The position numbers and the translations under genes are program-made. A DNA stretch of 64,000 nucleotides from contig JAGSHD010000014.1 in NCBI GenBank assembly GCA_023954715.1, positions 1 to 64,000 on the forward strand. The letters are read 5' to 3'. The notes under the pieces are model-generated. The model saw only the letters and a list, made by a program, of their open reading frames with translations. It was not told the DNA's origin and did no database searches. The stretch is from Candidatus Cloacimonadota bacterium. Lineage in GTDB: Bacteria > Muiribacteriota > UBA6191. Numbering within the stretch: position 1 is the first letter of the stretch; each line of letters opens with the position of its first letter. Of this stretch, positions 4,017-22,990 are shown piece by piece.

Positions 4017-4023
4017 AATCCTC

Positions 4024-4803: not shown

Positions 4804-4808
4804 TTCAA

Positions 4809-5190
4809 TTAATTTGAGTAGCAGCAGAGGCCAGATCTTGAGCCACCGGCGCCATCATTTATTCCAAAGAATATAGGGGAATCTTCAAAGTCACAGTTGC
4901 TTTGATAGTTAAAACTAATCATTGTAGAGCCGACAAAATTTGATGAATTATAATTTTTACCAGGAGTTAGGTTACCAGAGCCATTTTTACATACAGTTAC
5001 ATAGTCTTTTAAGTTACAAACTCGTGCATTATGATTTTGACAGTGACTAATCGTATCATTCATGTTCAATTCTCCTGCATTCATAACACAAAGATCAGTA
5101 TCTCCTGTGCCTATCAAAGTAAAGCCACTAGGACAAACCATAGTAGTTGGGCGAGCATGTACATGTACTCCATCGGCATGTGTTTCTGCA
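4809..5190 (-). other. C-terminal Cys-rich tip domain of paralogue A
   Basis: The last ~120 residues leave the repeat pattern. HADGVHVHARP (HxH) is followed by VCPSGFTLIGTGDTDLCVM, then HCQNHNARVCNLKDYVTVC and a terminal GLCCYSN. At least eight cysteines suggest disulphides outside the cytoplasm. The CxNxxARxCxLxDY pattern recalls short lectin-like tips of other giant surface proteins; this is an inference. Confidence 0.6.
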
Positions 5191-8100
5191 TCTCCCAAAT
5201 CAAAGATTTTTGCAAAACTAGTGTCAGAACTACTTACAAGTGATTTTGAAATTATTCCGTTGGTAATATGGCTAGTATTAAAAGAGCCATCCTTAAGTTT
5301 ATCAGTAGATATTAAACTAGAGCTTACTCCTGAGCCATCTTGAAAGACTTTAGTGCTATCAATATCTGTCCCAATAATACCACTAGTAATAAAATCAACT
5401 GGGATCTCAGTATTAGATAAGGTATTTGAGCCTAAAGCCGGTAAATCAATAATAGCTCCATTTAGCTTTTGTCCAGTAATAACAGCGGCTAAAAACTCAA
5501 CAGAGCTAATCGAGTTTGAAGCTGTACGACTATTTAAAGCAGTGCTAAATACAGGGAGTGTGGCAGTAAACTTGGCTAAAGTAACATTAGAGTCTGCTAT
5601 TTTACCCGCTTCGATAATGTCTGTGATTTTAGTAAGTCCAATAGTAGATGTAAGATTAATAACAGAGGAGTCAATGGTATTGTCTACAAACTTAGATCCT
5701 GGTATATCAGCGCTAAATGCGTCATCAGTTAAACTGTCATCAGTAAAGTGACGATCAACAATAGTATCATTAATAAATTTATTTAAGTTTACTCCGTCAT
5801 TTACAATATTAGCTTTAACAATAGCTCCATCGTTAATGTGGGTAGCAGTTATAGCGTCATCGTTTAAGTCATCCCAAGTTAAAGTATTAGCTTGTATATC
5901 AGCATTTACTATTGCTCCTAAATTTAAACTAGCATTTAGAGTTTTATCTACAATATGAGAGTTTAAAATACTGTGATTAGCAAAATCATTAAATCTTAAT
6001 CCACCAGCCAGTTTTGCAGCTGTGATTGAGTTTTCAGCTAGTTTTTCAGTGGCTACGCTACTATCTATAATTGAACTTTGATCAATGGCGTCAATAGCAA
6101 AGTTTCTGTTTATCAAGGTATCATTTAAAAGTCGGCTAGCATTTAGAGTAGCAGCTACAATTTCGTTTGTATCAAGGCTAGCATCCATAACATTTTGGGT
6201 TTCAATGGAACCAGAGTTTAATTTGCTTTGAGAAATATTACCCGCAGTAAATTGACTTCCGTTTACCGTACTATCGGTAATTTTAGCATTGGTAATTTGA
6301 TTTGTTTGAAACTTTGCAGCATCTATGGTGTTTGCATTAAACTTTACGGCATTGATCTTTGAAACGGTAGATAGATCTGGGGCTTTGATTTCTCCTAAAG
6401 CGATTCTATTTTCAGGGATATTATTATCTATAGAGGAGGATTCGATAGTATTGTTGACAAAGTGATCTTTGTCTAACTCATGATCTTTAATGTGTTTTGA
6501 TTCAATAGCAAAAGGGGCAATCTGTACATTAGTAAACGACCCGTTTTCAAGATGCGAGCTAAGTAATACTTGAGACTCTATATCAGATGCAATAATGGTA
6601 TTTGCATTTATAGCACCGATGTTGATAGAGTCACCATCAATGTGCCGTGTAATGATTGCATTTTCATCTATTTCAAGATTAGTTAGAGTTAAGTTAAATA
6701 TCTTACCCGTTGTAATAGTAATACTTGGCATTCTAGAAGAAATTAAAAAGTCGTCAACAAAGTTTCCACCAGTTAAACTAAGACTTTGGATTTTAGAGCC
6801 AGTAATCGTATCATCACTAAAGTCAGCGTTTATAATGTCCTGTAGTTTAATTTTATCAGAGTTTACAACAGCTGTAGTTACATTCGTATTATCAACAAAT
6901 CCATCAGCTATTTTAGATGAAGTTATTGTTTTGTTTACTATTTGACTTGTTTCAATGGCATTTGCTGCTAAGTCTGCATTGGCTAGTGATCTTAGTTTGA
7001 TAGTTTGCGAGCGAATCGATGAGTCATTGATTGTATTAATATCTGTGAATACTCCAAAATGAGAAGAAAATATGGCTTTAGCATCGACTTTATTTACTGT
7101 GAGGTCGTTATTTATATTTGCATTAGATAAAGTATGAGTAACAATGTTTAAGCTATTGATGGCATTGTCAGCAAGTTTAATAGAGAAATCATCAGTGATT
7201 GATAGTTTATGAGTATTAATTGATAAATTAGCAAGAGAAGCATTTAATATCTCCCTATCGATAAAGTGACCAGAAGTTAAATTTTGACTAGTCATATCAG
7301 ACATGACAAATGGTCGATTGGAAAACTTACTATTAACAAAAACTCTATCATTAAAAAACTGTTGTGTAAACTGACCAGCAAGTTTAGTTTGATCCACAAT
7401 ATCACTAGTGAATTTAACTTGATCAAGTAGCTCACCTAACTGCGTAGAAAACTTACCGGCAACGATACTGTCGTTTGATAACTCTCGAGAAGTAATTGTT
7501 AAGTTATCAATTTTGTTAAAAGGGATTGAAACAGTAGAATAGCTAGCTCGTGAGATTGTATTTGTGATAAAACTATGTCCACTTACAGATTGGGTAGCAA
7601 GGGAGCCACTTGTAACAATATTAGTAAACAACATAGAGTTTGTAATCGATTGATGAGCAAAATGCTTGGTATCTATAGAGTAGTTTTGTAACTTTGCTTC
7701 GACAATGGTGCCAGGGTTTACCAGATAAGGCAGCAAACTAGCATCGTTGATTAATCTAGAGTTAATTTCTCCATCGCTAATACTTAAGTTGGATAAGACC
7801 TCTGTAGCCAATTTATCATTTTCTAGTGAAAAACTAGCAGATAAATGACTTGTATCAATGGCATTTTCAACAAAGTTTCTGTTGTTAAAGGCTAGGTTTG
7901 TAAACTGACCTGAGTCAAATCCATTATCAACCAACTTACTGGTTGTGATCGCTGAGTTTTGTAAAGTTTCTCCAAAAAAGGATACATCTTTTATTTTATC
8001 TGTTGTAATCGAAGCGTTTCCAAGTGCATCTGCCCCTAAAACAGAAGTAGCAATCACAGTAGAGTCCAAAGTACCATCTTTAATCATTTCAGAGGTTATG

Positions 8101-11100
8101 ATTCTTGGTTTTAAATCAAAGCCGCTGATCCCATCTGTTGCCAATTTACTTGTATCTATAGAATTAAACTCAAAATGTCCGCCCTCTAATGTCAAGTCTA
8201 CGATATGATTACTAAATACACTGTTGTTTTGTAGTTTAGTCCCACTAAGAGAATTATCTGCAAAAGCATTGTTTCCGAGTGCGCCAGCTCCGATATCCTC
8301 TAATTTTAATGAGCCGTGAGCGACTTGCTTTTCACCCATGGGATTACTACTTGAAAAGCTAGTAGAAATCAAATTGGCAAAAGGTTGATGGTCATATTGT
8401 GGGATAACCTCATAAACATTTACATTATCAGCATACAAGAATCGGTCATTTGGTAATATCGTGAAAGCTTTGGCGTTACCAGTTCCACTCTTAATCTCTT
8501 TAAATGATGAACCACCATTTCGAGTTAAAAATAGCTTTTGTCCTGCTAGAACAAATCCAAGTGTTTCCGATACAAAGTGAATTTTTCTAATTTCTGATGA
8601 AAAAGTATATTTTAAAGTATCAACATCAGACTCTAGTTTATATAGATATTCATCGGCACCAACCCAAAGTTTTCCATCGTCGATTACATCCATCACTGCT
8701 CTTGTGGTTACTGCTGTAGACATAATACTTGTCCATGAGGCGCCACCATTGCTAGTTTTGTAAACTATTCCTCCTGCGTTGCTCCTACGAACACTAAGAT
8801 AAGCAGTTTTACCATCAATAAAATGCAAAGACTTAGGTTTCATATCAACTCCATTAGATATTACTACATTTCCACTTCCAGAGGTTTTTATAGCGACAAA
8901 TTCATTTAGAGTTTGATTATATTTTGACGGAACTAAGTCATTGTTGATCATACCAACTGCAAAAAAGTTGCTTTGGTCAAATGCAAAACCGATTGACTCA
9001 CTTGTATATGGAGTATGGGTAACAGAACTAAAGGTTGAGGCACTATCAGTTGATATACGTAGTTCACCAGTACTAGTTCCAACGATAAAGTTTGTACCTC
9101 GTCCATGACCTTCTGAAAAGGTTTGAGAGTTTTCTGAAATATTGATAGAAGTAAAAGTGCTCCCTCCATCTGTGCTGATCTGTATTTCTGTATTTGGTGG
9201 ATTTTCGTAAAATGCAACGATTTTGTTACCTCCATCTACTGGATATAAGCGATAAATTTCGCTTGCAAGCTTATCGTAGACAATATACTCACCATGGGTA
9301 AATGCTTTGTTTTGGATATGTTGAGCTGCAATAGAGTCAGTTGCTATTTTATCCCCGCTGATACTTGCTGGTATAAAGTGATGGGTCGTTAACACACCAT
9401 TTTTTAAAGAATTAGAAGTTAATGACTCTGATTGTATATGCTTGAAAAAAGTTGTATCAAATACAGCAAGGTTATAATCATTCTTAGTCACTAAAAAGCG
9501 CCCTTCTGATAGATATGTTGGGTTTAAGTCACTATTGTGGGGGATACTAGAGAGTCGAACAGCTTCAAAATTAGCCACAAACTGTTTTAATTGTGTTTTA
9601 ACAAGATCATATCTCCACATGCTTGAATTGGAATCATTAGTAGCTATATAAATATAGTTACCAAGAGCAATGAGCCCTTGTGGGCTAGAGGCATCAAATG
9701 CTGTTTGTTGTGCTGCATCAAAAGAAATTTGAGTCCAGGTTGCTCCATCATTTACTGATGTATAGAGCTTCATGCCTAAGTTATTTACAATAGCATATAA
9801 ATTACCGTTGTCTGGATTATAACTTAATGATTGAAATTCATTGATGAAAAATAGGTCTGTATGAGTTGTAAAACTTTGTCCACGATCGTGTGACACCAAA
9901 AACTCGTTAGCGGTTAAATTGGTAGTATAAATGGTGTCCTCATGGATGACCCATGGTAACAACGCATTAGAACCGCTATGAGAAAAGGTCCAATTTCGAC
10001 CAGAAGATACAGAGTAGTAGATCTCATTTGGGTTGGTTGCAAGTACTAAAACTCCTTCAGTTTGACTGAAAAAATGAATATCTTTTACTTTTCCAGGAGC
10101 GGTATCTGTCTTAGCCCATGATACACCACCATCAGATGTGTACATAATATCAAAAGATACCGAGCAAGCAGCATAACCTGTTTTATCGTTAAAAAAGTAA
10201 ATAGCATCCACTGCATTAGTACAGGCATTATTTCCAAGAGCAGTAAGGGTATCGTAATTAGGGGGAGATAATTTTTGAACTGTACCAGACCCATCTTGAA
10301 CTAAAAAGACTTCTCCACTATTTAGGCGAATTGAGTTTCCAAGTTTACCAAGGTTTATACCGATAGATGAATCCACATCACTGTTGATATCATCGATAGC
10401 GAATTGAGAGATCACTCCTGTTTGAATAATATCTTTACGAACTGCATCTACAAACAATTGGTTATGGCTAAGGCTGTAGTTAATGATAGAATCGCCACTA
10501 ATTGTACCATCAATAAAATGTTCAGACTTGAAAACACCGCCGGTATTAGTAGCCAATTTGATGTAAGAAACTGCATCTGTATCAATATGTTCAGCTAACA
10601 CAGACTGATTTGTGATGATACGTGTAATGATTTGATAGGATGCAATGGATCTGCTACTAATAGATGAGTCTTCAATACTTGCTGTAATAATGGTATTAGT
10701 TTGTAAAAATTCACCAGCAATTGACTTGTCTTTTATATTGGCACTATCCAACTGGTTTAATGCTATTTTTTTAGATGAAATAGTTTCGTTTAAAAACTTA
10801 TCTTCTTTGAAAATAGCGCTGTCAAAATCTTCGGTGATGATTGAACTAGGTTTGATTTTTCTAGTAGTAATTTGTAAGTCTGCTACCTTATCTGTATGGA
10901 TAGAAGTTGTTACAGTTGCGATGTGACTACCTAGTATGCTCGCATTTGAAAGTGTTCTTGTTGTGATCGAGTCATTGGCGAAGTCTTCAGATAATAAAGA
11001 GTTATATAAAATTTCAATAGAATCGATGGAGTCTTCTGATACTAAGAGACCGATTGAATTATCCTTAAAGTCTTCTGTTCTAAGAGTCCAGCTGATTAGA

Positions 11101-14100
11101 TGTTCACCATGGATAGATCGATCCAAAATTTGATCACTAGTGATGGTAGATAATGCAAAACTAGTATAATCAATAGTATTAGATAAAAATTGCTCATCTC
11201 TTAAAGAATCATCCATTAAATGATGGGTATGAAGAGCTGATGCAGCAAAACTTCGATCAAGTAGTACATGAGTTTTTATTAACTCTTGAATAATAGAAGA
11301 TGTAGATAGATGATAGGTTTTGATAGCTAAATCATTAATATCATCAGAAGTCAGACTATTACTAAGAAATCTAGAGTTAGTCAGTTGATGAGCAGTTGCA
11401 GTTGATACTTTTGAATTAGTAATATTAAAGTCTTGGATATGTCGAGCCTGTATGGAGCGATTGATAAACATAGATGTAAAATCGATTGCTTCAGCTGAAA
11501 TATCAGAGTTTTCTAAAGTATAGCTTTTTACTTTAACCCTAGAGACGGAGTTATTTTGAAAGTGACGAGACTTAAGGTCTCGGTTTAAAATATGTGTAGA
11601 TAAGATATTAAAGTCTTCAATAACACGATTGTCGATAGACTCATCAGCAAGGTCTACAGTTTTTATTTGATGAGTTACTATATCCTCACCATGAACTGAC
11701 TCAGATGTTAGTTTAGATAGGGTGATTGATTCATTTTTTAGTTTGTCAGAAGTAATCGAAAAGTCAATAATCTCTTCAAAACCAATAGAGTTAATAGCAA
11801 GTACTCTACTATCAATAGACTGTAAGTCAAAGTCTGAGTCAATTAAAGTTTGATCGGCAATGACTCTTGAATCCACACTATAAGAAGCAATTTTACTAGA
11901 AGTGATTGAGTCTTCTTTGAATTGCTCTCCAGTAAAAATAGAGTCTGCAATAGCATGATCACTTAGTGAGTTATCTTTTATATCTATATTTGTGATCGTG
12001 CCATCGATGATATTATCTGAGATAAACGAGTCACTAGAAAAGTTCATTGAGGCTAATGAGTTCATCTTCAAGTTGTTTGATTGAATACCAGCATCATCGA
12101 TATTTCTTGCAGCAACGGAAGCGTCTAGATTTGGGTGCCATAGTATTAAAGAGTTTTCAAGTGTTGCGGAACTAGAAGGGATATAAAATCTGTGTTGGTA
12201 TAACACAACTTGATTAGTACCACTATCAGAGTTAATGGCAAAATCAAAGGTGCTCAGTGGAGTAATAGATACACCAGGAACAAAGCGATAAACCATGTTT
12301 TTATCTTGGTCCCCACCAAAAACGTAAATATCTCCATTATAAGAGTGAGCACTGCATCCAGTAAAATCTATATTAAAACCACTAAGATCTACGGTCCATG
12401 ATGAGCCATCATTGGTTGATACCCAAACACTATCATCACCAAAAAGGTAAATATTATTTTGATGACTTACATGCTCTGTACCAATAAAATTATTAGGAAG
12501 AGGGGCTAAGGTAGTAACTGTTAAGGGATTTAGAGTAGCTTCTTTAGACTGATCTAAATAAGTGCTAGCAGCACTTCTACCACCAAACAAATAGATTTTG
12601 GAGTTTAAGCTAGCACTTTGATGATCACTCACATTTGTAAATGAACTTGACGACTGATTTTTCCAGGTAAACCCATCTCGTGATGTAAAGGTATCATCGC
12701 TGTAGTTTCCTCCAGTTAAAATCAAAAATTCTTCATTTTTAACGATATGATGGCCAGCTCTAGCTGAGAAACTACCGTTATTATGCTGTATCCAATTATC
12801 ACCATCTCCAGTTGAATATATTTCGTTGGATAATCCAGATAAGGAATCCCCACCAATTAACCATAGTCGATTTTGAAACACGATGGTTTGATGGCTTTTT
12901 CGTGGACTCCAAGGAGGCCTAGAATGTCGAGTCCAAGTGATACCGTCAGTTGATGAATGAACCTCATCAGTTCGTCCAGAAGCAGTTTCTCCACCCAAAA
13001 TAAAGATACGTCCGTTAAATACAGTCATAGTATGATTAGTAATAGGGCCAGTAGGAAGAGTAGCCCCCAGACTTGTAAAGTTTTGAGCATCACCAGCACT
13101 ATAGACTACATCACTGAATCCTGCTCCAGTATCTCCACCACTGATATATACAGTTCCACCATGTACTACGGACTGATGACCAAATAGTGCACTAGGAAGA
13201 CTAACACCTGCATCGGTAAAGGAACTACCATCAAAGCTAATAACCTTATCGCTCGCTGAACCATTGTATCCACCGTATAGATAGACTTGAGATCCAAACT
13301 TCACCGATGAAGATTGGGACATATTACTAGGTAGATTAGATACATTAGTGTAAGAGCTAACAATCTCATCTAGTTTAAGTTTGTGAGCATCGTTACTATG
13401 ACTACCTGCTCCACCTATAAAATAAAACTCGCCTTTATGAGAAAGGGCTTTTGCAGAATAATCATTAGAGTTAGTAAAAGTAGCTGATGTATAAGTGGTT
13501 AATGTGTCGCTTGGATAATCATAGGTGTAAAATAGTGAATCTCCAAAAAATTGTATTGAGTCTTGATCATAGATATAGGCATACTCATTGCTTAATCCAT
13601 CCAATGAAGGATGTGCATGTGAAGTTTTACTCGTTAAATTAATCCTTTGTGCAGAAGCATGTCCACCACCAAAAACTAACATTTCGTTTTCAAAAATGGC
13701 TACCACTGGGTTTGTTCTACTGTTAAAATCAATTGGGCCAAAGGTAGTTACTTGGCCATAACCACCTGAAAAGAAGTGTCGATCAAAAATACTATTGTTA
13801 GAGATATCTATTGTGCCAAGGGTTAGATCAGCAAGCTTACCGATTGTTACAGCATCGCTTTTTAAAACAGAGCTAGTACAATTGCCAGGCAAATTAGAAG
13901 ACCATGTAGTCAATTGACAGTCTACTAAAGAGAAATCCATAATTACATTGCTATCAATCGACCCTGTAGATAACTCACGGTAGGTAATAGAGAGAGTCTC
14001 GATATCAATGGATGCAATGGAGTCAGTATCTACTTTAGAGTCATCCACAGCGTCATCTGCAATTTTATCTTTTGTAACTAGTAGGTCCATTAGGTTAGCT

Positions 14101-17100
14101 GTACTTAAGCCTGATGTGTGGTCCAAAAGGTGTCCAGAAGTAAGAGCTTCAGATACTAATAAAGAGCCAGTTATTGTATGAAAAGCGATATCTGAAGTCT
14201 CAATAGTAAAATCTTCAAATTTTTCGGTTTTTAAAACAAAATCTGTGATTTTTTCAGTGAGAATATTATAGTTAGAAAGCTTTTGAGTCGTGGCAGAGCT
14301 TTCTTGAAAGTGTCTTGTGATTAAGGTTTGCGTATCAATATCAATGTCTTGAACGGAGCCATTTAAGATTTGTTTAGTGGCCATAGTAAAATCTAAGATA
14401 TCGTTAGACTCTATATTTTGGTCTCGAAAGTTACTGCTATATAGACTACGGTCTTTAATAACTGTTGTTGATATAGTGTTAGTAGATATATGATCTGTTT
14501 GAATAGAACGATCAGCAAAATCTGCATCAGTAAAACCACCATCAGAAAGCTTAAGACTTTGGATAGTTGATATAGCTAAGTGTCTAGTGTTAATTTGACT
14601 TGTTGAAAGTTTACTTGAAAGTACAACAGAGTCGTTAAAGTGTAGACCTAAGAGATTTTTATCTTTTATGTTTTTAGCGTAAATGTTGTTATCTAAAATA
14701 TGTCTATTTTCAAAACTTAGATCAATAATTTTAGATCCAGTGATGGTTGTGTTAGCGATGTCATTTAAAGACAAACTCTCATCAAGGATTCCGTGGTCAC
14801 CTTTTCCACCAGAGATAGTTTGATCTGTAAAATTGGCGTTGCCGATCATTTGTCTTGCAAATGTATTTCCGTAAGGATCAAAACTAAATACTTTTTGAGC
14901 AGAGGAGTCAATATTACTATCGTTAGAAGAAAATACTTGTACTGACTCTAATTGACTTGGGTTTGCTAGTTTAGAAAGTTGGGCAATCGAGCCATTTCCG
15001 ATGAAATAGAAGGTATCAGAAGTAACGGCTAAAGTACCACTAGATATACTGGTGGAAACTTGGGAGACAAAGTTTAAGCTTTTATCTTCTGGGTAATATT
15101 GATAGATCTTTTTACTATCTTCATCAAAAAAGTAAGCTTTATTTTTGTACTGAGTTATCTGCCAGTGATTGTTGTCGATTTGAGGTAGTTCATCAAAAAG
15201 AGTCCACGTCAGACTTTGAGGAGTTGAATTTAAGACTTGAGATCGATAAATCTTTTGCTTAACTAAAGTATAAAAACGATTGCCGGCTTTAAAACTCAAG
15301 TTTTTATGGTTTTTAGCTTGGAACAAGTTTTGCCCAATCAGATTTTGAGAAGTAGATAATCCTAAAGCCGTTTCTACTCCATCTTGGTATTGTACCAACT
15401 CAGGAGTGCCAGAATTAACTTTTGTATAGTAGAGTTTATTATCAAAAGGTGATACAAAAGGATTTTTAGCATAGGTAGTACCAGATAGATTAGTTATGGA
15501 TTGTGGACTAGTTTTTCCAGCTTGAAGTCGGTATATGTTAGTGGTGTCAAAATGTGCCTTTGCAGAAAAATAATAGTCGCCAGACGATACTTTTAGTACT
15601 TCTCTTAGTACGAGCTCGTCAAAATATGTATCAGTGAGTGGAGCCATACTAGTATCTGGAGATTGTACTAAAATACCATCTCTTTTTTGGTTGACAATAC
15701 TACTTGAATGATAAGTAATTTCTTTTACATTACTAATATTTTTGAAAAGCACGGGCACAAGATCTGCATTCAACTGAGAGTAATATGGTTTACCTTCTTT
15801 GATGAAGTATACTCTTTGATGGTCATGACTTATAAATTGGATAGTGCCCGTTGTACCGTTTAAGAGTTGGTTACTTACATTATATAGATTTAAACCATCG
15901 CTTGTGATTCGAAGTACCTCTTGACTTGTACTAGTATCTTGTGAAAAATAGAGATAGTCATTGTCTTTGGCAAACGATAAGTTTGTTACAGGAGTACCAG
16001 AAGTACTAGCACGAATTGAACTATGACTTTTTGTTGCCATATCATATAAGTTGATTCCGAAGTCATCGCTAGAATAAGCGATGAAGTTTTCATTTGAACT
16101 TAAATCCGCATGAGCAAATCTAGGTGTAGATGATAGCCATGTTTTACTACCAGAATTTAAATTTAAAGAGTAAATTTGTTGGAAAGAAGAAGGAGATATA
16201 GCATTTACCGGATGTATACTTAGGTCTCTATTGTTATCTTCTCCACCAAACAAATAGAGTTGATGTTGATTGTAAAAAGCACCAGCATTTGCAATATTGG
16301 ACTTTAAAGTAGATAAGTTTTGATGAGTATTATTAGTTACATTGTATAAAATCAAAGTAGATGTTGTTCCTGATGAGTTTGCTCCTCCAATCAACAAAAT
16401 ATGATCATTGTCATAGTTTAGAAGTGTAATATTATGAGCGTTGGTACCAGCTACACTCGCTTGGGTAGATACTTGACTCCAAGTATTAGAGCCAGTAGCA
16501 AACTTTTGATTATAGATACCATTTTTGTTACCTATTAAAAACAGCTCAGATCCTTTTGAAATCAAACTTGATTGGTCATAAGCAAAGCCAGGGCTAAGTT
16601 TTGCAGTCCAGTTATTAGCACCCACAGAATACTCAAGTAAACCTGAGTTGGAGCTCGTTTGGTAATCCATGAAATAGACACTTGCTCCATGTGCTACCAA
16701 TGCGCCTTGAGTGCTTGGAGTCGTACCTAAAATATTACCGATTGGCCAAAACTTTTTTTCAAGTAGAGAGAAATACCAAAAAGTTTGTCCAGACTGAAAG
16801 TATACTTTATCCGTTTGGTCATAGCTACATGAAAATGGAGTATTAAAGGGTAGGGTTTCTGTGAGAGTATAAAAGTTGTCTTGAATAGAGTCATACTCTT
16901 GAATTTGATTGTCGCTAGCACCAGAACCAAACAAGTATAGTTTATCCTGATAATACGCAGAACAGTTTTGCTCATGACTTAAGGGCAGTTTGTTATTAAG
17001 CGTAGCAAATGCAGTAACAGCTACAATAGCTTCTTGTGAGTCTAAAATGATTGGTCTATGTGAGATGCCTTGTGGAAAGAAACTAACCTGAGTAGTATCG

Positions 17101-20100
17101 CTACCATCACTTAGTGAGGCAAATAAGTTAACTTTAGAATTATGAGCTTTTGCCATAGATAGAGAGAAAATTTGATTGTTCTTTACTATTAAATCATGAA
17201 AGTCATCACCCGAACTCATAAAGCTAGATTCATCAGTATCATCGCTATCTACTTTTATAACGGAATTATCTGATTGTTTTATCAATAATGCTTCACCGGA
17301 TAAGTTCATCATAGTTACTTTTGCGATCATAGATACAGAATTATCAGAATTAATGTGGAGGTCTCTAACACCGTATTTACCTGTTTCAACAGAAAACGTA
17401 GATTGACCAGCTCCATCTCTTTGGATTTTTGATACTGTACCGTAATCCGTGGCACCGCTAATATAATAGATGAAATCTTTGTCATTACCTTGTCCCCACT
17501 GACAATGGTGGCCAACTCCTAGCGCAGTTACTTGATCCAATACTAAGTCAAGAGTATGAAGATTACGACTATCATCATGAAAACAAATATCAGTATTGTT
17601 TTTAGATATATTAATATTATGGATATTTGATCCGTGTGTATAAATTAGTCTTTCATCACTTTTAGCAAGATTGTTTCGGTAGATACTATTTGCTCTAACA
17701 TAAACCAAAGCCTCTTCAAGCATTTGTTGATGAGCAGGAAAGTTGGAGCTAAACTCAGTGATCCCTGAGACTTCACCAGCGAAGGATTGTGTCATAGGAT
17801 ACATCATGCCGTTACTTTGAACGTAACCACCAAACAGATAGACTTCATCATCAAAACTTAAACTCTGATGGTATAACAATGGCTTAGGCACAACAGCAGA
17901 GCTATTCCAGATATTGCTAGAAACGGTATATTGATGTAGCTGTGTAGATGGGTTTACTCCATTCAATCCCCCTGTAACGTAGAGTCGTTTTAGAGATTCG
18001 TCAAAAGATAAACCGAGGTGTTTAAAAGACAAACTAGCATTGTTAGTAATGTTTGAGAAGTTACTTGTTTGAGTACTAAAATTTAAAACTGATGTATTTG
18101 AGTTTGATAAGTCAATGTCGTCGTATCCATGAGCAACTAAAAAAGATCCGTTGTTAGGCAATACCCAAGGGAAATGTCTTTGCAAATCAACGGTACTTGT
18201 ACTTAACCATGAAGAGGGCGAAGATGCTCCAGGAGTTAATAATATGGACTCGTTAGAATCTACAAATCGGTTTTCACCAGTAAAGATGTTTTCTAAATCT
18301 TTTCGAGCCATTTGAGAAATATGAACATTAGCTATCGTATCATGTGTATGAAGATGATCAGCAAAATAAAGAGGAAAGTTTGATTGAAAGTTTGGGTTAA
18401 AACTGACTCCTGGATGGATAATTAAGGTAGTCATAGTCAAATGCCCAATTGAGTAAGTTGATGTACCTATGCCTAAGTTTAGTTGTGAATTTACTATTTC
18501 AAGTTGACCATGATGTAAAAAATCAAGATTACTACTTAGGTTACCGAGACGATCAATAGAAAAATAGTCATCGGCACTTAAAACCATATATGGTGATGAA
18601 GATGATGTGTCATTGATGCTAATTTTAGTTTGATAATTATCTACATCAGGAAAAATTCGTAAATCATCTCTTAGTATAAGCTCTTGATCTACGCTAAGGT
18701 CTTGAAGTCTAGATTGTGAAGAGAGGTTTATAAAGTAGTTGGTATCGTCCAGGTCACTTAAGTCTGGTGAAACTATAGGAGACAATATTTGAGTTACCGC
18801 TTGAGTATCGTTTACTGTCATTTGATTTAGAACAGCAGTTTCAGAAAGTACAATGCTAAAGGTTTCGTTGTGTAGACCATTTTGAGAGTCAATGTATTTT
18901 TGAAGAGTAGAAGATTGAGCGATTTCAAAATTTAGTGATCCAGCAGCTGTTGATAGGGAGAGTAAATTTTGTGCGTCCAAATGCAACAATGTACCGTCAC
19001 TTTTTTGAAATCGAATATGTCGAATATTAGAGTTTTCAGTAGCAAAAGTCCAATGGGTTTGCATAAGTAGAGCTTTAGCGGAGTCAGCTAAAAATCGAAT
19101 AGATCCCGTTGATCGAAGTCCACCTTTTGTAGAGCTAGTGTTTCCGAAAGGGTCAATAGAGAATACTGTTGTTAAAGATTGATCTTGAATACTAAAAGTA
19201 CTATCAATATCATTGAGGTGTAGATGTAGTTCTTGAAACCATGTAGGTGAATGAATATCAACTCTACCTAAAACTGTCACTGTACCGTCAAAATCTCCAG
19301 CTTGGTTAACGGTAACATTATCCGTAAAGTGTGCAGATCTTGCGTAGATAACCCCTTGATTAGTAACACAAAACTCTAAGTCATTTGGTAGGGTGCTATC
19401 AGCATTCATCCTACACTCAGGTACATAAGATGCTGAAGTAGCAGGCATAACCAATCTACTATAGATTTCAGTCTGCTTATCAATAATTAAATTTTGATCG
19501 AAGAAACTATCTTGTCCTACTGTTAAATTATTAAGGATACTTACATTTTTGGCAGTAAGATAAGATGATTTTAGTTGAGATTGGATATTTATTTGGTTAA
19601 AAGAACTTACTTGATTTGGATCTACACTATAGTTTGGATTATTTATATCTATAATATTGGATGCGTTTCTGACAACTCCGTTAAAATCAAGATTTCTGCC
19701 AATGGTTATCATACCAGTGTTAACATCAAGATCTCCGTTGATGGTGCTATTACCACTAAGAGTAAGGTCACCATCTAGTTGTAGACTATTTGCTTCGGTT
19801 AGAACACTTGGATCAAGAAATCGAGTAGCATTAGTGTAATCAATCAGGTTTTGAGCAGTAGCAAAACCGTTGTCTAGTGTTGTTACACCTTTAATTGCCA
19901 TGGATGTAGTGTAAATACTAGAGCTTAATGTAACTAATTTGTTGTTGCTACTAGTTATAAAGTCATTCCGAATATCAACGTTTTCACTTACATCTAGATC
20001 AGAAAGTATAGAAGTTCCGTTCGGATCAAATTTAAATCTTTGAGGCTCAACAATTGTAAAAAAAGATTGGGATGCAATGTAATTATCTGTTGTACCAATG

Positions 20101-22478
20101 GTACCAATTTCGGCATTAAAATCTGAAGTTACTTCGATTGGGGCATCAATATTTGTATTTCCAGAAAAGCTAAACTCTCTATGGATTTCAATATTTTCTA
20201 CGATAGAATGTTCATTTGGGTTAACAAATCTTTTACTTCCGTCATTACCTGGGCCTCTATCTGTATATATGGTCGCAGTTAAGGTACTGATATCACTTAA
20301 GTGAGTCGCTGCTAAAGTAGTTTTATCCATACATTCAATTGAAGATGCGATTGTTACATTTTGTAGACCAAAACAACCAGAGATTAATGCGCCGTCGATA
20401 GTCATATTGTTATCTATATTTAAATCTCCATCTACTGATAGTTCACCATAGATTGTCATTTTAGAGCTTAAATTATCTGCGGGTACTAATTTTAGTTGTT
20501 GATCAAGGGTAAGTCCTCCAGCTTTAACATCTAGACGTTTGTTTTTATATAAAAACACTATATCTCGCTTTTCTGAGGATCGAGTACCGAAAATACCAAA
20601 ACTTTTTCTAGGAATATAGCTTGAGTCTACAAAGGGTTCAATTGTATCGTCTGTATGTTGAACCCCACCAAACACTACTCGAGCTTGTGCGATATCTGGA
20701 TTACCAGCAGATACCTCTATGTTTTCACGAACTTTAAGACTAGAAAACAAATCCTTATCAAAGTTGTCTGGTATCAATCCATAAAAGTAAGTTTGTTTAG
20801 GCCAAACATTATCAAAAGTTTCTTTCATTAGTGAGCTATCAATAAACTCTAAATCAATAGTTTTAGAGTCAGTAAACTCAGATGAATTTATAATAGCCAT
20901 TAACTCCTCTTCAGAAGCTTGAGAAATTAAATCATGATTATGAAAATCAAAAAGATCTCCAGAAACCAAAGAATTATATATTTCTTCGGTGATCACAGGG
21001 TCAAAAATTGCATTTACGAAGTGCTTAGAGGCCGAACTAGTAAATCGATGTGCTGATACTCTAGCATTGAGTCGTAGCCTTGCTTTACCTTTGTCTCTAA
21101 AATGAAATTGAAGTGCCTTAAAATTAGAAGTTGAAGAAGGTTTAACAAAGTAGGGGGAGGTCTTACCGCCTTCACTAGATGGACGCAACTTGGAGGCAGA
21201 CAACTTAAAGTATTGTGGATCGCCATAGTTGTCAATTTCGTTTTCATTCAGTTTGTTATCTACACCAAGCTTAAAATGTGTTGAATCTATATTTGATAAC
21301 TCTCCAGATGAGTCCATAGTTATGTTTCCATCTAATAGATTAACCGAAGCGGATACGCCATTGACCCTCATACCTGCATAGTTTTTAATCTGAATATCTG
21401 CTCCACCCTTCATATGAAGTGAGCCATTGATACCTGTGGAGAGATTCATGATAGAGAGGCTTTGAAAATGACTCATACCGCCTAAATTTAAATTGTAGGT
21501 GTGCTCTTCTGTTGAGCCGTTATCAATAAAGTTGTCAGTTAGGACTAATTTATTAGCTCTCAATATATTTTTGAATGCATCCGCTTCACAGTTTAAAGAC
21601 ATACAAAGTCTTTCAAAAAATAGGTTTCCTTCTGTGACAATAAAAGTTTCTTCTACTTCTAAAACAGAATCTTTTAAATAGAGGCTACCTTCCATATCGA
21701 TAGCTTTATTGTTAGTTGTTCCCATGGATATATTTAAGGTTCCGTTTTCAAGATAAAACCCTGCTGCAAGTTGATTGGCTTGAGTATCGTCAGGTTTTGT
21801 ATCAATTGTTAAAACAGCTCCAGTTACAAGAACGCCATCTTCAACTTTTGGAGTAGCTTGGATGATTAAATTTCCTGTTTTGGTGTCAGCTCCGGATAAT
21901 TTCAGGGCGGAGACAGAGTAGGGTGAAGAATCTATATTAAAGTCTGGTTTGATTTGTTCCCAGTCTTCATTGATGGTTCGTCTCATATAAAAACGTAAGG
22001 CATAGTTTCCGTTAGGTAAATTAGCTCGATCTACTTCTGCTTGAGTTTTGTATTCATACTCTAACTTTGTCTCAAAAACGGCAGCACCAATTTCTACACC
22101 TTGATCATCTTCATCAAAAATTAAAGAGTATTGACCGTTATGAATTTGTACTTCTTCAAAAGTTTTACTCCAGACGATGGTCTCAGGACTTTGGCCCTCT
22201 TCAAGTTGGCTTATATCTAGAACTCTCTTAATAATCTCAACACGAATAGAAATAATTTGATTGTACGGACCATCTGCGGGGTGGACTACAGACCCTGAAA
22301 ACTCAATCACCTGAGATGTTGCACCATATGGTACAGAACAAAATAATATAAACAGAAAGGTACAACAAAAATGTGCGGTATTTTTTAACAAAGTCTGCGT
22401 AGCAAAAAGTTGTTTACTCTTTAGAAGCATTGTATTCAAGAGATTTATAGTATTTATTATAAAGTTTTTATAGTTCAT
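4809..22478 (-). CDS. Giant secreted fibre-like protein with Kelch/Asp-box propellers and decapeptide solenoid (paralogue A)
   Basis: At 5,889 residues this is one of the two largest genes here. Order: Sec-type signal (hydrophobic ~36-52); beta domain ~55-190 ending in SSPYSVSALKLSG; beta-rich shaft to ~1,380 with many LNINNNMTIDG-like strands; HLHTHDTIANV; Kelch-type block ~1,440-2,510; decapeptide repeats ~2,567-2,902; mixed Kelch/Asp-box block ~2,910-3,446; repeats ~3,455-4,030; Asp-box blocks ~4,053-4,343 and ~4,397-4,695, separated by about five repeats; repeats ~4,717-5,747; HxH and a Cys-rich tip to the end. The N-terminal domain matches the 'FQGxL...NGTV...PYxVxA' domain seen at the start of other giant bacterial surface proteins. 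It lies 95 bases downstream of paralogue B on the same strand, probably co-transcribed. The start ATG has AAGGA about 16 bases upstream, which is long. An export signal is clear; a surface-fibre role is inferred; no membrane anchor or sorting tail is visible. Confidence 0.85.
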   Translation of the reverse strand: MNYKNFIINTINLLNTMLLKSKQLFATQTLLKNTAHFCCTFLFILFCSVPYGATSQVIEFSGSVVHPADGPYNQIISIRVEIIKRVLDISQLEEGQSPETIVWSKTFEEVQIHNGQYSLIFDEDDQGVEIGAAVFETKLEYEYKTQAEVDRANLPNGNYALRFYMRRTINEDWEQIKPDFNIDSSPYSVSALKLSGADTKTGNLIIQATPKVEDGVLVTGAVLTIDTKPDDTQANQLAAGFYLENGTLNISMGTTNNKAIDMEGSLYLKDSVLEVEETFIVTEGNLFFERLCMSLNCEADAFKNILRANKLVLTDNFIDNGSTEEHTYNLNLGGMSHFQSLSIMNLSTGINGSLHMKGGADIQIKNYAGMRVNGVSASVNLLDGNITMDSSGELSNIDSTHFKLGVDNKLNENEIDNYGDPQYFKLSASKLRPSSEGGKTSPYFVKPSSTSNFKALQFHFRDKGKARLRLNARVSAHRFTSSASKHFVNAIFDPVITEEIYNSLVSGDLFDFHNHDLISQASEEELMAIINSSEFTDSKTIDLEFIDSSLMKETFDNVWPKQTYFYGLIPDNFDKDLFSSLKVRENIEVSAGNPDIAQARVVFGGVQHTDDTIEPFVDSSYIPRKSFGIFGTRSSEKRDIVFLYKNKRLDVKAGGLTLDQQLKLVPADNLSSKMTIYGELSVDGDLNIDNNMTIDGALISGCFGLQNVTIASSIECMDKTTLAATHLSDISTLTATIYTDRGPGNDGSKRFVNPNEHSIVENIEIHREFSFSGNTNIDAPIEVTSDFNAEIGTIGTTDNYIASQSFFTIVEPQRFKFDPNGTSILSDLDVSENVDIRNDFITSSNNKLVTLSSSIYTTSMAIKGVTTLDNGFATAQNLIDYTNATRFLDPSVLTEANSLQLDGDLTLSGNSTINGDLDVNTGMITIGRNLDFNGVVRNASNIIDINNPNYSVDPNQVSSFNQINIQSQLKSSYLTAKNVSILNNLTVGQDSFFDQNLIIDKQTEIYSRLVMPATSASYVPECRMNADSTLPNDLEFCVTNQGVIYARSAHFTDNVTVNQAGDFDGTVTVLGRVDIHSPTWFQELHLHLNDIDSTFSIQDQSLTTVFSIDPFGNTSSTKGGLRSTGSIRFLADSAKALLMQTHWTFATENSNIRHIRFQKSDGTLLHLDAQNLLSLSTAAGSLNFEIAQSSTLQKYIDSQNGLHNETFSIVLSETAVLNQMTVNDTQAVTQILSPIVSPDLSDLDDTNYFINLSSQSRLQDLSVDQELILRDDLRIFPDVDNYQTKISINDTSSSSPYMVLSADDYFSIDRLGNLSSNLDFLHHGQLEIVNSQLNLGIGTSTYSIGHLTMTTLIIHPGVSFNPNFQSNFPLYFADHLHTHDTIANVHISQMARKDLENIFTGENRFVDSNESILLTPGASSPSSWLSTSTVDLQRHFPWVLPNNGSFLVAHGYDDIDLSNSNTSVLNFSTQTSNFSNITNNASLSFKHLGLSFDESLKRLYVTGGLNGVNPSTQLHQYTVSSNIWNSSAVVPKPLLYHQSLSFDDEVYLFGGYVQSNGMMYPMTQSFAGEVSGITEFSSNFPAHQQMLEEALVYVRANSIYRNNLAKSDERLIYTHGSNIHNINISKNNTDICFHDDSRNLHTLDLVLDQVTALGVGHHCQWGQGNDKDFIYYISGATDYGTVSKIQRDGAGQSTFSVETGKYGVRDLHINSDNSVSMIAKVTMMNLSGEALLIKQSDNSVIKVDSDDTDESSFMSSGDDFHDLIVKNNQIFSLSMAKAHNSKVNLFASLSDGSDTTQVSFFPQGISHRPIILDSQEAIVAVTAFATLNNKLPLSHEQNCSAYYQDKLYLFGSGASDNQIQEYDSIQDNFYTLTETLPFNTPFSCSYDQTDKVYFQSGQTFWYFSLLEKKFWPIGNILGTTPSTQGALVAHGASVYFMDYQTSSNSGLLEYSVGANNWTAKLSPGFAYDQSSLISKGSELFLIGNKNGIYNQKFATGSNTWSQVSTQASVAGTNAHNITLLNYDNDHILLIGGANSSGTTSTLILYNVTNNTHQNLSTLKSNIANAGAFYNQHQLYLFGGEDNNRDLSIHPVNAISPSSFQQIYSLNLNSGSKTWLSSTPRFAHADLSSNENFIAYSSDDFGINLYDMATKSHSSIRASTSGTPVTNLSFAKDNDYLYFSQDTSTSQEVLRITSDGLNLYNVSNQLLNGTTGTIQFISHDHQRVYFIKEGKPYYSQLNADLVPVLFKNISNVKEITYHSSSIVNQKRDGILVQSPDTSMAPLTDTYFDELVLREVLKVSSGDYYFSAKAHFDTTNIYRLQAGKTSPQSITNLSGTTYAKNPFVSPFDNKLYYTKVNSGTPELVQYQDGVETALGLSTSQNLIGQNLFQAKNHKNLSFKAGNRFYTLVKQKIYRSQVLNSTPQSLTWTLFDELPQIDNNHWQITQYKNKAYFFDEDSKKIYQYYPEDKSLNFVSQVSTSISSGTLAVTSDTFYFIGNGSIAQLSKLANPSQLESVQVFSSNDSNIDSSAQKVFSFDPYGNTFARQMIGNANFTDQTISGGKGDHGILDESLSLNDIANTTITGSKIIDLSFENRHILDNNIYAKNIKDKNLLGLHFNDSVVLSSKLSTSQINTRHLAISTIQSLKLSDGGFTDADFADRSIQTDHISTNTISTTVIKDRSLYSSNFRDQNIESNDILDFTMATKQILNGSVQDIDIDTQTLITRHFQESSATTQKLSNYNILTEKITDFVLKTEKFEDFTIETSDIAFHTITGSLLVSEALTSGHLLDHTSGLSTANLMDLLVTKDKIADDAVDDSKVDTDSIASIDIETLSITYRELSTGSIDSNVIMDFSLVDCQLTTWSSNLPGNCTSSVLKSDAVTIGKLADLTLGTIDISNNSIFDRHFFSGGYGQVTTFGPIDFNSRTNPVVAIFENEMLVFGGGHASAQRINLTSKTSHAHPSLDGLSNEYAYIYDQDSIQFFGDSLFYTYDYPSDTLTTYTSATFTNSNDYSAKALSHKGEFYFIGGAGSHSNDAHKLKLDEIVSSYTNVSNLPSNMSQSSSVKFGSQVYLYGGYNGSASDKVISFDGSSFTDAGVSLPSALFGHQSVVHGGTVYISGGDTGAGFSDVVYSAGDAQNFTSLGATLPTGPITNHTMTVFNGRIFILGGETASGRTDEVHSSTDGITWTRHSRPPWSPRKSHQTIVFQNRLWLIGGDSLSGLSNEIYSTGDGDNWIQHNNGSFSARAGHHIVKNEEFLILTGGNYSDDTFTSRDGFTWKNQSSSSFTNVSDHQSASLNSKIYLFGGRSAASTYLDQSKEATLNPLTVTTLAPLPNNFIGTEHVSHQNNIYLFGDDSVWVSTNDGSSWTVDLSGFNIDFTGCSAHSYNGDIYVFGGDQDKNMVYRFVPGVSITPLSTFDFAINSDSGTNQVVLYQHRFYIPSSSATLENSLILWHPNLDASVAARNIDDAGIQSNNLKMNSLASMNFSSDSFISDNIIDGTITNIDIKDNSLSDHAIADSIFTGEQFKEDSITSSKIASYSVDSRVIADQTLIDSDFDLQSIDSRVLAINSIGFEEIIDFSITSDKLKNESITLSKLTSESVHGEDIVTHQIKTVDLADESIDNRVIEDFNILSTHILNRDLKSRHFQNNSVSRVKVKSYTLENSDISAEAIDFTSMFINRSIQARHIQDFNITNSKVSTATAHQLTNSRFLSNSLTSDDINDLAIKTYHLSTSSIIQELIKTHVLLDRSFAASALHTHHLMDDSLRDEQFLSNTIDYTSFALSTITSDQILDRSIHGEHLISWTLRTEDFKDNSIGLLVSEDSIDSIEILYNSLLSEDFANDSITTRTLSNASILGSHIATVTTSIHTDKVADLQITTRKIKPSSIITEDFDSAIFKEDKFLNETISSKKIALNQLDSANIKDKSIAGEFLQTNTIITASIEDSSISSRSIASYQIITRIITNQSVLAEHIDTDAVSYIKLATNTGGVFKSEHFIDGTISGDSIINYSLSHNQLFVDAVRKDIIQTGVISQFAIDDINSDVDSSIGINLGKLGNSIRLNSGEVFLVQDGSGTVQKLSPPNYDTLTALGNNACTNAVDAIYFFNDKTGYAACSVSFDIMYTSDGGVSWAKTDTAPGKVKDIHFFSQTEGVLVLATNPNEIYYSVSSGRNWTFSHSGSNALLPWVIHEDTIYTTNLTANEFLVSHDRGQSFTTHTDLFFINEFQSLSYNPDNGNLYAIVNNLGMKLYTSVNDGATWTQISFDAAQQTAFDASSPQGLIALGNYIYIATNDSNSSMWRYDLVKTQLKQFVANFEAVRLSSIPHNSDLNPTYLSEGRFLVTKNDYNLAVFDTTFFKHIQSESLTSNSLKNGVLTTHHFIPASISGDKIATDSIAAQHIQNKAFTHGEYIVYDKLASEIYRLYPVDGGNKIVAFYENPPNTEIQISTDGGSTFTSINISENSQTFSEGHGRGTNFIVGTSTGELRISTDSASTFSSVTHTPYTSESIGFAFDQSNFFAVGMINNDLVPSKYNQTLNEFVAIKTSGSGNVVISNGVDMKPKSLHFIDGKTAYLSVRRSNAGGIVYKTSNGGASWTSIMSTAVTTRAVMDVIDDGKLWVGADEYLYKLESDVDTLKYTFSSEIRKIHFVSETLGFVLAGQKLFLTRNGGSSFKEIKSGTGNAKAFTILPNDRFLYADNVNVYEVIPQYDHQPFANLISTSFSSSNPMGEKQVAHGSLKLEDIGAGALGNNAFADNSLSGTKLQNNSVFSNHIVDLTLEGGHFEFNSIDTSKLATDGISGFDLKPRIITSEMIKDGTLDSTVIATSVLGADALGNASITTDKIKDVSFFGETLQNSAITTSKLVDNGFDSGQFTNLAFNNRNFVENAIDTSHLSASFSLENDKLATEVLSNLSISDGEINSRLINDASLLPYLVNPGTIVEAKLQNYSIDTKHFAHQSITNSMLFTNIVTSGSLATQSVSGHSFITNTISRASYSTVSIPFNKIDNLTITSRELSNDSIVAGKFSTQLGELLDQVKFTSDIVDQTKLAGQFTQQFFNDRVFVNSKFSNRPFVMSDMTSQNLTSGHFIDREILNASLANLSINTHKLSITDDFSIKLADNAINSLNIVTHTLSNANINNDLTVNKVDAKAIFSSHFGVFTDINTINDSSIRSQTIKLRSLANADLAANAIETSQIVNKTITSSKIADGFVDNTNVTTAVVNSDKIKLQDIINADFSDDTITGSKIQSLSLTGGNFVDDFLISSRMPSITITTGKIFNLTLTNLEIDENAIITRHIDGDSINIGAINANTIIASDIESQVLLSSHLENGSFTNVQIAPFAIESKHIKDHELDKDHFVNNTIESSSIDNNIPENRIALGEIKAPDLSTVSKINAVKFNANTIDAAKFQTNQITNAKITDSTVNGSQFTAGNISQSKLNSGSIETQNVMDASLDTNEIVAATLNASRLLNDTLINRNFAIDAIDQSSIIDSSVATEKLAENSITAAKLAGGLRFNDFANHSILNSHIVDKTLNASLNLGAIVNADIQANTLTWDDLNDDAITATHINDGAIVKANIVNDGVNLNKFINDTIVDRHFTDDSLTDDAFSADIPGSKFVDNTIDSSVINLTSTIGLTKITDIIEAGKIADSNVTLAKFTATLPVFSTALNSRTASNSISSVEFLAAVITGQKLNGAIIDLPALGSNTLSNTEIPVDFITSGIIGTDIDSTKVFQDGSGVSSSLISTDKLKDGSFNTSHITNGIISKSLVSSSDTSFAKIFDLGDAETHADGVHVHARPTTMVCPSGFTLIGTGDTDLCVMNAGELNMNDTISHCQNHNARVCNLKDYVTVCKNGSGNLTPGKNYNSSNFVGSTMISFNYQSNCDFEDSPIFFGINDGAGGSRSGLCCYSN
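5240..8330 (-). repeat. Decapeptide repeat tract 4 of paralogue A (~100 units)
   Basis: Continuous degenerate ten-residue repeat of form D-x-S-I-x-[ST]-x-x-[IL]-x, with a hydrophobic residue every five positions; examples are DNSLSGTKLQ, NNSVFSNHIV and ENSITAAKLA. Unit number is estimated from length. DNA identity between units is low, so this is an old, diverged array. The end also carries long hydroxyl- and Asn-rich stretches typical of beta-solenoids. Confidence 0.8.
8390..9290 (-). other. Asp-box (BNR) propeller block 2 of paralogue A
   Basis: Four Asp-box motifs are visible, including ISTDGGSTFTSI, TSNGGASWTSI and LTRNGGSSFKEI, spaced as in sialidase/sortilin/photosynthesis-stability-factor propellers. 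Catalytic sialidase residues cannot be judged. Confidence 0.65.
9290..9450 (-). repeat. Short decapeptide linker of paralogue A (~5 units)
   Basis: ESLTSNSLKN, PASISGDKIA and DSIAAQHIQN join two Asp-box propeller blocks, showing that even a few repeat units serve as spacer between beads. Confidence 0.65.
9450..10320 (-). other. Asp-box (BNR) propeller block 1 of paralogue A
   Basis: Motifs YTSDGGVSWAKT, YSVSSGRNWTFS, SHDRGQSFTTH and TSVNDGATWTQ match the S-x-D-x-G-x-x-W/F Asp-box pattern, about 50 residues apart, giving roughly one small propeller. Confidence 0.65.
10390..12115 (-). repeat. Decapeptide repeat tract 2 of paralogue A (~57 units)
   Basis: The clearest ten-residue phasing in the protein: DFSITSDKLK, NESITLSKLT, SESVHGEDIV, DESIDNRVIE. 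Each decad splits into two five-residue halves, each with one Ile/Leu/Val. Confidence 0.8.
12140..13750 (-). other. Hybrid Kelch/Asp-box propeller block of paralogue A
   Basis: About 540 residues. Kelch strands with a Gly-Gly doublet (GRIFILGGETASG, RLWLIGGDSL, KIYLFGGRSA, DIYVFGGDQD) alternate with Asp-box turns (SSTDGITWTRH, STGDGDNWIQH, SRDGFTWKNQ) at the same blade period. That is enough for one to two propellers. Confidence 0.65.
13775..14780 (-). repeat. Decapeptide repeat tract 1 of paralogue A (~33 units)
   Basis: Units such as DRSIQTDHIS, TNTISTTVIK, DRSLYSSNFR and DQNIESNDIL begin right after a SGGKGDHG spacer and end at a mirrored SGGYGQ spacer next to the following propeller. Confidence 0.75.
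14950..18160 (-). other. Kelch-like propeller block 1 of paralogue A
   Basis: About 1,070 residues of beta-propeller-like sequence with Kelch strands KRLYVTGGLNG, EVYLFGGYVQS, ILLIGGANSSG and QLYLFGGEDNN plus WD/TolB-like blades (NENFIAYSSDD, NDYLYFSQDT). At about 50 residues per blade this could be about three propellers in a row. Confidence 0.6.
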
Positions 22479-22573: not shown

Positions 22574-22990
22574 CTAGAAACACCAGGCTGAGTTACCGCC
22601 ATCAGCACCACCAGTGACAACGTGTTCACCAAAACCAGAATGATTATCAGGAGTACTATCATTAAACAATAAAGTTTTGAAAGTGCCTCCTAAGCCTTTT
22701 GGGCTCACCATAAAATCAGAACTCAGATGTGTATCAAGATTGGTAAAGGAGATTCCAGCTTTTTCTGCTCTCCAAAGTTGTTCAGCAGTACACATTCTAC
22801 CTCGAACTACGATGTTGTTTAAAGTATAAGCAGTATAGGTATCATGTTGGGAAAAGAACTTAGCATTAATATTCGGTACGATACAAAAAGCATTACCAGA
22901 AGTCCCAACTTTCGAGGCTCCAACTCCATTACACAGTATCTCTTGAGTTAAGATGTCGTGTTTATGATGAGAGTCAGCATTTCCTCCACC
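22574..22990 (-). other. C-terminal tip domain of paralogue B
   Basis: After ADSHHKHD (HxH) the decapeptide pattern stops. The tip has four or so cysteines (ILCNGVG, AFCIVP, GRMCTAEQLWRAE, SAWCF). CTAEQLWRAE resembles the CTLxEW segment of short lectin-like domains. The sequence differs from the tip of paralogue A but occupies the same place. Confidence 0.55.

Follow-up and report, generated by a model that had tools for sequence, protein, structure and literature searches.

The closest described relatives of the proteins presented here are phage tail fibres and the adhesins of Bdellovibrio. The sections of PMC10579305 on Alteromonas phage V22 describe its central fibre, gp24, as a protein of 1,430 residues whose range 457–924 is modelled with AlphaFold as a homotrimeric β-helical fibre, with a lectin-like head. 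The fibre gp28 of P-SCSP1u is a trimer according to PMC10575957, in which only the N-termini of the fibre are resolved. The Bdellovibrio protein Bd2740 belongs to the mosaic adhesive trimer (MAT) adhesins and ends in a trimeric tip with a C-type-lectin fold (pdb 8OKS). In a stretch of 64,000 nucleotides from a Candidatus Cloacimonadota bacterium (contig JAGSHD010000014.1 of assembly GCA_023954715.1, positions 1–64,000; hereafter the window), two neighbouring open reading frames (ORFs) on the minus strand, P0001 and P0002, encode giant proteins that carry the ten-residue repeat of V22 gp24, interrupted by β-propellers and followed by a C-terminal domain distantly homologous to the Bd2740 tip. 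With moderate confidence, the two proteins are considered to be secreted, probably trimeric, MAT-like giant adhesins.

The repeat unit of the P0001 and P0002 shafts reads D/N-x-S/T/A-I/L/V-x-S/T/N-x-K/H/D/N-I/L/F-x. This consensus is drawn from regular runs, and single units therefore often fit it less well. Within the shaft blocks the hydrophobic residues (ILVFM) are autocorrelated at lags of 5, 10, 15 and 20 residues (r 0.49, 0.45, 0.44 and 0.40), with values of about zero at lags 4 and 6. The S/T, K/H/R and small-residue classes peak at lags 10, 20 and 30 (0.11–0.16) and show almost no correlation at 5 and 15. The hydrophobic period of five combined with the polar period of ten defines a ten-residue unit made of two non-equivalent five-residue halves. 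A position matrix trained on P0002 gives 149 hits in P0001, with 77 pairs exactly 10 residues apart, against a maximum of 33 hits and 1 pair in 200 shuffles; in the first 1430 residues of P0001 it gives 6 hits and no ten-spaced pair. A result so far beyond the shuffles confirms the repeat with five-residue halves and a hydrophobic residue every five that a preliminary description of this DNA had noticed in units such as NESITLSKLT and DESIDNRVIE, found at residues 3582 and 3612 of P0001. The figure of about 200 units given there also agrees with the 199 counted by length from the block borders of P0001, to which the adjoining P0002 adds 198. The extent proposed for it, a single repeat region at 5240–14780, has to be revised. 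This span is broken into four shaft blocks (P0001 blocks A to D in Table 1), which make up about 1990 of its approximately 3180 residues with mostly propellers as the remainder, and the P0001 gene reaches well past it.

The classical 'DGSITSAKI' form of the repeat is present in the same genome, in two short proteins on contig C18 (open frames of 867 and 907 residues). Their position preferences agree with those of the giants at positions 3, 4, 5, 6, 8 and 9, and the giants share the register of the 'DGSITSAKI' phage-fibre decapeptides, with I at 4 and 9, S/T/A at 3 and K/D/H at 8. The short proteins, taken from three genomes, have glycine at position 2 in 38–46% of their units and the giants in 7–11%; for alanine at position 7 the shares are 21–42% and 7–14%, respectively. 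Small residues as a class (G/A/S/T/C) reach 57–67% at position 2 and 54–75% at position 7 in the short proteins, compared with 23–30% and 41–47% in the three giants of the genome. The small residue two before the core, reported earlier as missing, is thus depleted as a tendency of the giants, which are poorer in G at 2 and A at 7, but it is not absent in an absolute sense.

Database comparisons lead in the same direction. P0002 matches phrog_13518 (E 1.8e-59) and phrog_892, a 'tail fiber protein' (E 2.2e-31), the short canonical shaft matches 12 PHROG families at E ≤ 0.001, and tblastn returns 27 phage records which, where named, are mostly tail or host-specificity genes. In V22 gp24, 45 of 49 consecutive ten-residue slots (residues 439–928) hold a scored unit, P-SCSP1u gp28 has a repeat stretch at residues 157–217 (E 0.038), and among solved structures the repeat profile matches 9eg4 orf16 best (E 2e-6). 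No solved structure of a long repeat run was found by sequence search, and a literature search covering the peptide strings, 9EG4 and comparable five- or ten-residue repeats of tail fibres found no paper on the repeat or on these proteins. On the sequence evidence, the repeat of the giants is a diverged 'DGSITSAKI' phage-fibre decapeptide, a relation already suspected in the preliminary description. The proposal made there of a possible distinct β-solenoid is not supported, as in V22 gp24 the same repeat falls in the published AlphaFold-Multimer homotrimeric β-helical fibre. Rather than a categorically new solenoid, the shaft is a diverged phage-fibre decapeptide, set in a probable MAT-like adhesin that is unusual for its giant size and its propellers.

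The predominance of phage tail fibres among the relatives of the repeat would also suit phage-derived tail-fibre genes, from a prophage or a phage-like particle, in place of bacterial adhesins. Such an origin is very improbable given the housekeeping-like neighbours (pyruvate dehydrogenase subunits and a glyoxalase-like protein recognised by eye, and an esterase recognised by Pfam), of which the esterase and the glyoxalase-like gene are retained in the genome NORP72, and given that giants are present in all four genomes of the family. Among the window's listed ORFs no capsid or tail gene stood out. The repeat profile has matches in all four genomes of the family, the present one among them, and in 1 of the 35 other genomes of the phylum that were searched; a search with the N-terminal 1482 residues of P0002 recovered 4 of 36 genomes, each of them a member of this family.

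A hydrophobic residue every five positions is also characteristic of pentapeptide-repeat proteins. Membership of those families (PF00805, PF13599) is rejected on the Pfam cut-offs and the position pattern. Pentapeptide_4 scores 27.7 bits in P0002 and 16.9 bits in P0001 (cut-off 38), 4 of 40 sixty-residue shaft pieces scanned singly match it at E < 1 (best E 4.7e-4), and none of the Pfam models scanned over the giants, shaft pieces and paralogues recognises the decapeptide at its cut-off. The comparison with the pentapeptide families that had been proposed to decide the matter gave no high score inside them, and the repeat stands outside them as had been supposed. The window itself encodes a true pentapeptide-repeat protein of 272 residues (39230–40048, plus strand; Pentapeptide_4 65.2 bits, cut-off 38), whose NORP72 counterpart also lies close to the giants; a profile comparison between it and the shaft aligned one column, which is a weak test since the template is a single sequence. 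The profile derives from an alignment (A1) of 40 pieces of 60 residues from regular ungapped runs, and its sharpness is accordingly overstated.

It could nevertheless be argued that the shaft folds like a pentapeptide protein, as a single-chain four-sided β-solenoid whose 20-residue coils would each take up two decapeptides, both hydrophobic residues of a unit lying in the core. Besides the spacing of the hydrophobic residues and the score of P0002 with Pentapeptide_4, this arrangement would account for a phmmer match of P0002 to 2j8k (E 0.003), which we take to be a pentapeptide protein, and for weak matches of the repeat profile (E 0.4–0.9) to a pentapeptide structure and to proteins named beta1. 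The pattern of constraint is a different one: the residue two before each core position is not small and is poorly conserved (54% and 53% identical between P0001 and its NORP72 orthologue), while the residues directly before the core (positions 3 and 8) and position 6 are conserved. An AlphaFold monomer model of the shaft has one six-residue strand per ten residues and that of the pentapeptide protein of the window, used as a control, has strands about every five residues in its recognised part, both models being of low confidence. The single-chain fold is therefore regarded as unlikely, and a trimeric shaft is the better reading because the repeat in V22 gp24 sits in a published homotrimeric fibre model. 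The units themselves show no consistent periodicity of two, as for a four-sided coil, or of three, as for a triple helix. Among 388 units of the three giants of the genome, about 180 tests gave three deviations with |z| > 3 (hydrophobicity of position 4 at lag 3, z 3.5; charge of position 5 at lag 2, z -3.3; charge of position 8 at lag 4, z -3.6), and 245 units from the genome BROCD023 gave one (charge of position 7 at lag 6, z 3.1), which matches none of the three.

Stacked β-strands are usually spaced by approximately 4.8 Å. With this rise per unit, a trimeric three-faced shaft of 199 units would be about 95 nm long, and a single-chain four-sided coil about half of that. For comparison, the tip region 647–781 of the MAT protein Bd3182 is reported to be 60 Å high, or about 4.4 Å per ten residues.

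Comparison between genomes demonstrates that the shaft is closely maintained. The NORP72 orthologue of P0001 (about 5883 residues) is approximately 62% identical, collinear and almost gap-free. Over 149 P0001 units from regular runs the identity is 81–82% at positions 4 and 9, 83% at position 8, 76% at 3, 68% at 6 and 49–58% at the others, and the hydrophobic character of positions 4 and 9 is retained in 147 of 147 cases each. The ratio of the proportions of non-synonymous and synonymous differences (pN/pS) is 0.32 for the shaft, 0.15 for the core positions and 0.43 for the propellers; judged from these codon comparisons, the shaft is under purifying selection. In P0002 a run of 510 residues, or 51 units, has no indel in its own genome, in NORP72 (72.5% identical) or in BROCD023 (36.9%), and thereby spans two genera. 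The in-phase identity to BROCD023 over this run is 0.37 and drops to 0.13–0.19 on shifting by 1–5 units, indicating that the units are old and have been kept one by one, with no turnover by slippage. The other shaft blocks are nearly, but not always, equal in length between orthologues. The BROCD023 orthologue of P0001 aligns with it over 5356 residues at 32% identity. Within the shaft the two are separated by four gaps of exactly 10 residues (after residues 3886, 5371, 5684 and 5707), two of 8, one of 16 and one of 5, together with many of 1–2 residues, some possibly alignment noise; these events are too few for a choice between a 10- and a 20-residue unit. A relative of P0002 in a further genome, G003 (contig C272, L021), has one in-frame TGA in its N-terminal part, which may be genuine or an assembly error, and the G003 piece with the internal TGA is excluded from a second alignment (A2).

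These data also bear on the suggestion that the shaft is an irregular elastic linker, or another kind of oligomer, that only spaces the propellers and has no fixed β-helix. The low confidence of the monomer model and the many imperfect units (164 scored hits inside the shaft clusters of P0001 against 199 units by length) would agree with such a linker. Linkers usually tolerate changes in length, whereas the 51-unit run is indel-free in three genomes and loses its identity out of phase, and the core hydrophobic residues are strictly kept, which makes a linker quite unlikely. A bolder proposal, possible but on balance doubtful, is that the giants represent a new kind of surface fibre, with a trimeric decapeptide shaft of at least about 95 nm, propellers at fixed heights and a unit count held by selection that would serve as a ruler for the distances of the propellers and the tip. 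The idea that such shafts are molecular rulers can be put directly to the test on the one long run whose unit number is conserved exactly.

The C-terminal tip provides the link to the MAT adhesins. A profile of nine C-terminal domains, from the giants and the short proteins, matches one solved chain, 8oks_B (E 3.8e-8), and with the P0001 tip alone this chain is the sole PDB match below E 1 (E 5.2e-4). The nine tips share three invariant cysteine columns. Pfam adds weak hints to two families of related fold, namely Xlink in three of the nine (best E 0.0076) and FGE-sulfatase in one (E 3.1e-4). On these matches the tip of the giants is distantly related to the Bd2740 tip, a trimer with the C-type-lectin fold. 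A third giant is encoded in the genome on contig C22 (an open frame of 5282 residues; L009 2638–18483, minus strand). Its C-type lectin domain matches Lymphocyte antigen 75 (E 4.5e-14), and it also matches Laminin_G_3 (94.9 bits, cut-off 27.6); by eye, about 1,000 residues with Kelch, Laminin_G and C-type lectin look like an insertion into its tip, ahead of the last CC motif.

The combination of a phage-type shaft, propellers and a lectin-like tip suggests that P0001 and P0002 probably form long adhesive fibres. The N-terminal domain would lie at the cell and be followed by the non-repeat stalk. Each unit would probably contribute one short strand (positions 4–9) and one turn (positions 10-1-2-3), with three chains probably winding into a trimeric β-helical shaft as in phage central fibres. 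The propellers would then be held at set heights along the shaft and the lectin-fold tip at its far end, where it could mediate adhesion. Several observations weigh against this arrangement. The trimeric shaft is only probable, by analogy with V22 gp24, and the structure of gp24 is itself a published prediction and not an experiment. The predictions made here are of monomers, and that of 200 residues of the P0002 shaft (13 aligned rows) has a mean predicted local distance difference test score (pLDDT) of 50. The pentapeptide control, predicted from a single sequence and so not matched in depth, also scores low (pLDDT 35), and the value for the shaft monomer consequently says nothing either way. 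Foldseek gave no match for the shaft model at E ≤ 0.001. The similarity to 2j8k and, below its cut-off, to Pentapeptide_4 belongs here too, as does the tip of one short paralogue, for which 8oks (E 0.0058) ranks second by E-value behind another protein. No anchor or secretion system for the giants was identified.

The two proteins are built on a common plan (Table 1). A hydrophobic segment resembling a signal sequence opens the chain and is followed by an N-terminal domain, a stalk to about residue 1430–1516, alternating shaft and propellers, and a cysteine-containing C-terminal domain. The stalk is followed by a propeller region in P0001 and by a shaft block in P0002. P0002 is the next minus-strand ORF, separated from P0001 by 95 bases, and its residues 1–1482 are 67% and 33% identical to two orthologues. 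The N-terminal domain of P0001 has no family match; it appears similar to the 'YQGRL' domain with which other surface proteins begin. A motif of the type 'YxxDPxxxS', presumably shared with other fibre proteins, recurs in the first 1500 residues of P0001 (2 copies), P0002 (4) and the C22 giant (2), as counted with one pattern. The first propeller region of P0001 matches PF24681 (52 bits, cut-off 50), PF24981 (50.7, cut-off 50), Kelch_4 (36.8, cut-off 21.6) and Kelch_1 (29.2, cut-off 20.1), and the second matches PF24681 (78.4, cut-off 50), Kelch_6 (54.1, cut-off 25.3) and Kelch_1 (52.8, cut-off 20.1). The Asp-box propellers of both proteins are probable assignments from sub-threshold matches and motifs read in the translation. 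NF045728 reaches 42.6 bits (E 4.2e-11) around residues 4091–4205 of P0001, far below its cut-off of 175, and in residues 4406–4730 the Pfam scan found no family above cut-off.

Table 1. Layout of the P0001 and P0002 genes in window coordinates
Feature	Residues	Coordinates	Strand	Basis
P0001 giant ORF, ATG start	5889 in all	4809..22478	-	ORF listing
P0001 N-terminal domain, after signal-like hydrophobic segment	~55-195	21894..22316	-	translation reading
P0001 non-repeat stalk	~196-1432	18183..21893	-	lacks 5-residue periodicity
P0001 Kelch-type β-propeller region	1433-2551	14826..18182	-	Pfam
P0001 shaft block A	2552-2903	13770..14825	-	34 scored units
P0001 Kelch propeller region	2904-3436	12171..13769	-	Pfam
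P0001 shaft block B	3437-4009	10452..12170	-	53 scored units, cluster 3422-4009
P0001 probable Asp-box propeller	4010-4349	9432..10451	-	NCBIfam NF045728, sub-threshold
P0001 shaft block C	4350-4405	9264..9431	-	5 scored units
P0001 second probable Asp-box propeller	4406-4730	8289..9263	-	Asp-box-like motifs read in translation
P0001 shaft block D	4731-5739	5262..8288	-	72 scored units, cluster 4741-5739
P0001 C-terminal tip domain, His- and Cys-containing	5770-5889	4812..5171	-	PDB match 8oks_B
P0002 giant ORF, GTG start	4757 in all	22574..36847	-	ORF listing; N-terminal relatives in 3 other genomes
P0002 N-terminal domain, '...NTINFQGFL...'	~55-190	36278..36685	-	conserved in two orthologues
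P0002 non-repeat stalk	~191-1516	32300..36277	-	orthologue alignment
P0002 shaft block A	1517-2282	30002..32299	-	71 scored units, cluster 1497-2282
P0002 ungapped 51-unit run inside block A	1773-2282	30002-31531	-	indel-free in 3 genomes
P0002 propeller-like region with Asp-box (probable)	2283-2881	28205..30001	-	BNR 13.5 bits, below cut-off 27; motifs read in translation
P0002 shaft block B	2882-3265	27053..28204	-	34 scored units, clusters 2839-2991 and 3016-3265
P0002 probable PD40-type propeller	3266-3528	26264..27052	-	by-eye likeness to next propeller; no family match of its own
P0002 shaft block C	3529-3739	25631..26263	-	19 scored units
P0002 PD40-type propeller	3740-3999	24851..25630	-	PD40 (Pfam) at 26.3 bits against a cut-off of 20.9, strongest over 3894-3915
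P0002 shaft block D	4000-4620	22988..24850	-	28 + 19 scored units
P0002 C-terminal tip domain	4622-4757	22577..22984	-	aligns with other tips

Elsewhere in the window, two adjacent large proteins (44983–48378 and 48371–51859, plus strand) both end in SpoIIE phosphatase domains, the first also containing HAMP, and ORFs at 1396–3990 and 4126–4803 (plus strand) appear by eye to be Hsp70-like and protein-kinase-like. A large protein of 2257 residues at a separate locus (L011 1–6771, minus strand) has LbR_Ice_bind repeats that score 53.5 bits against a cut-off of 30, and the decapeptide matches it weakly at one place.

Among known systems, V22 gp24 shares the ten-residue repeat with the giants but is a phage structural protein of 1430 residues with alanine-rich units. 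The repeat region of Legionella DotG/IcmE is matched by the short canonical shaft (phmmer, E 9e-9); it belongs to a secretion-system protein, and the match is alanine-rich and repetitive, a similarity and not an established homology. Pentapeptide-repeat proteins have the same hydrophobic spacing and differ in their Pfam scores, in the small residue two before the core and in their conserved positions. The two short C18 paralogues resemble the giants in repeat register, Cys-containing tip and a similar N-terminal start, but have 24 well-scoring units in both together, with G at 2 and A at 7 common, and match no Pfam family at E ≤ 0.01. A repeat that is common in phage fibres, and that none of the scanned Pfam models recognised at its cut-off, occurs here in giant bacterial proteins alongside propellers and a lectin tip of MAT type. 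This points to an uncultured lineage in which shafts of the phage kind are combined with adhesive tips of the predator kind. A close parallel in overall design is the MAT adhesin Bd2740, also a long fibre-like protein with an N-terminal domain, a stalk and a C-terminal tip, the tips being homologous. The MATs, however, are of about 1,000 residues according to their description, whereas the giants, from a different phylum, have 4.7–5.9 thousand residues, decapeptide shafts and internal propellers.

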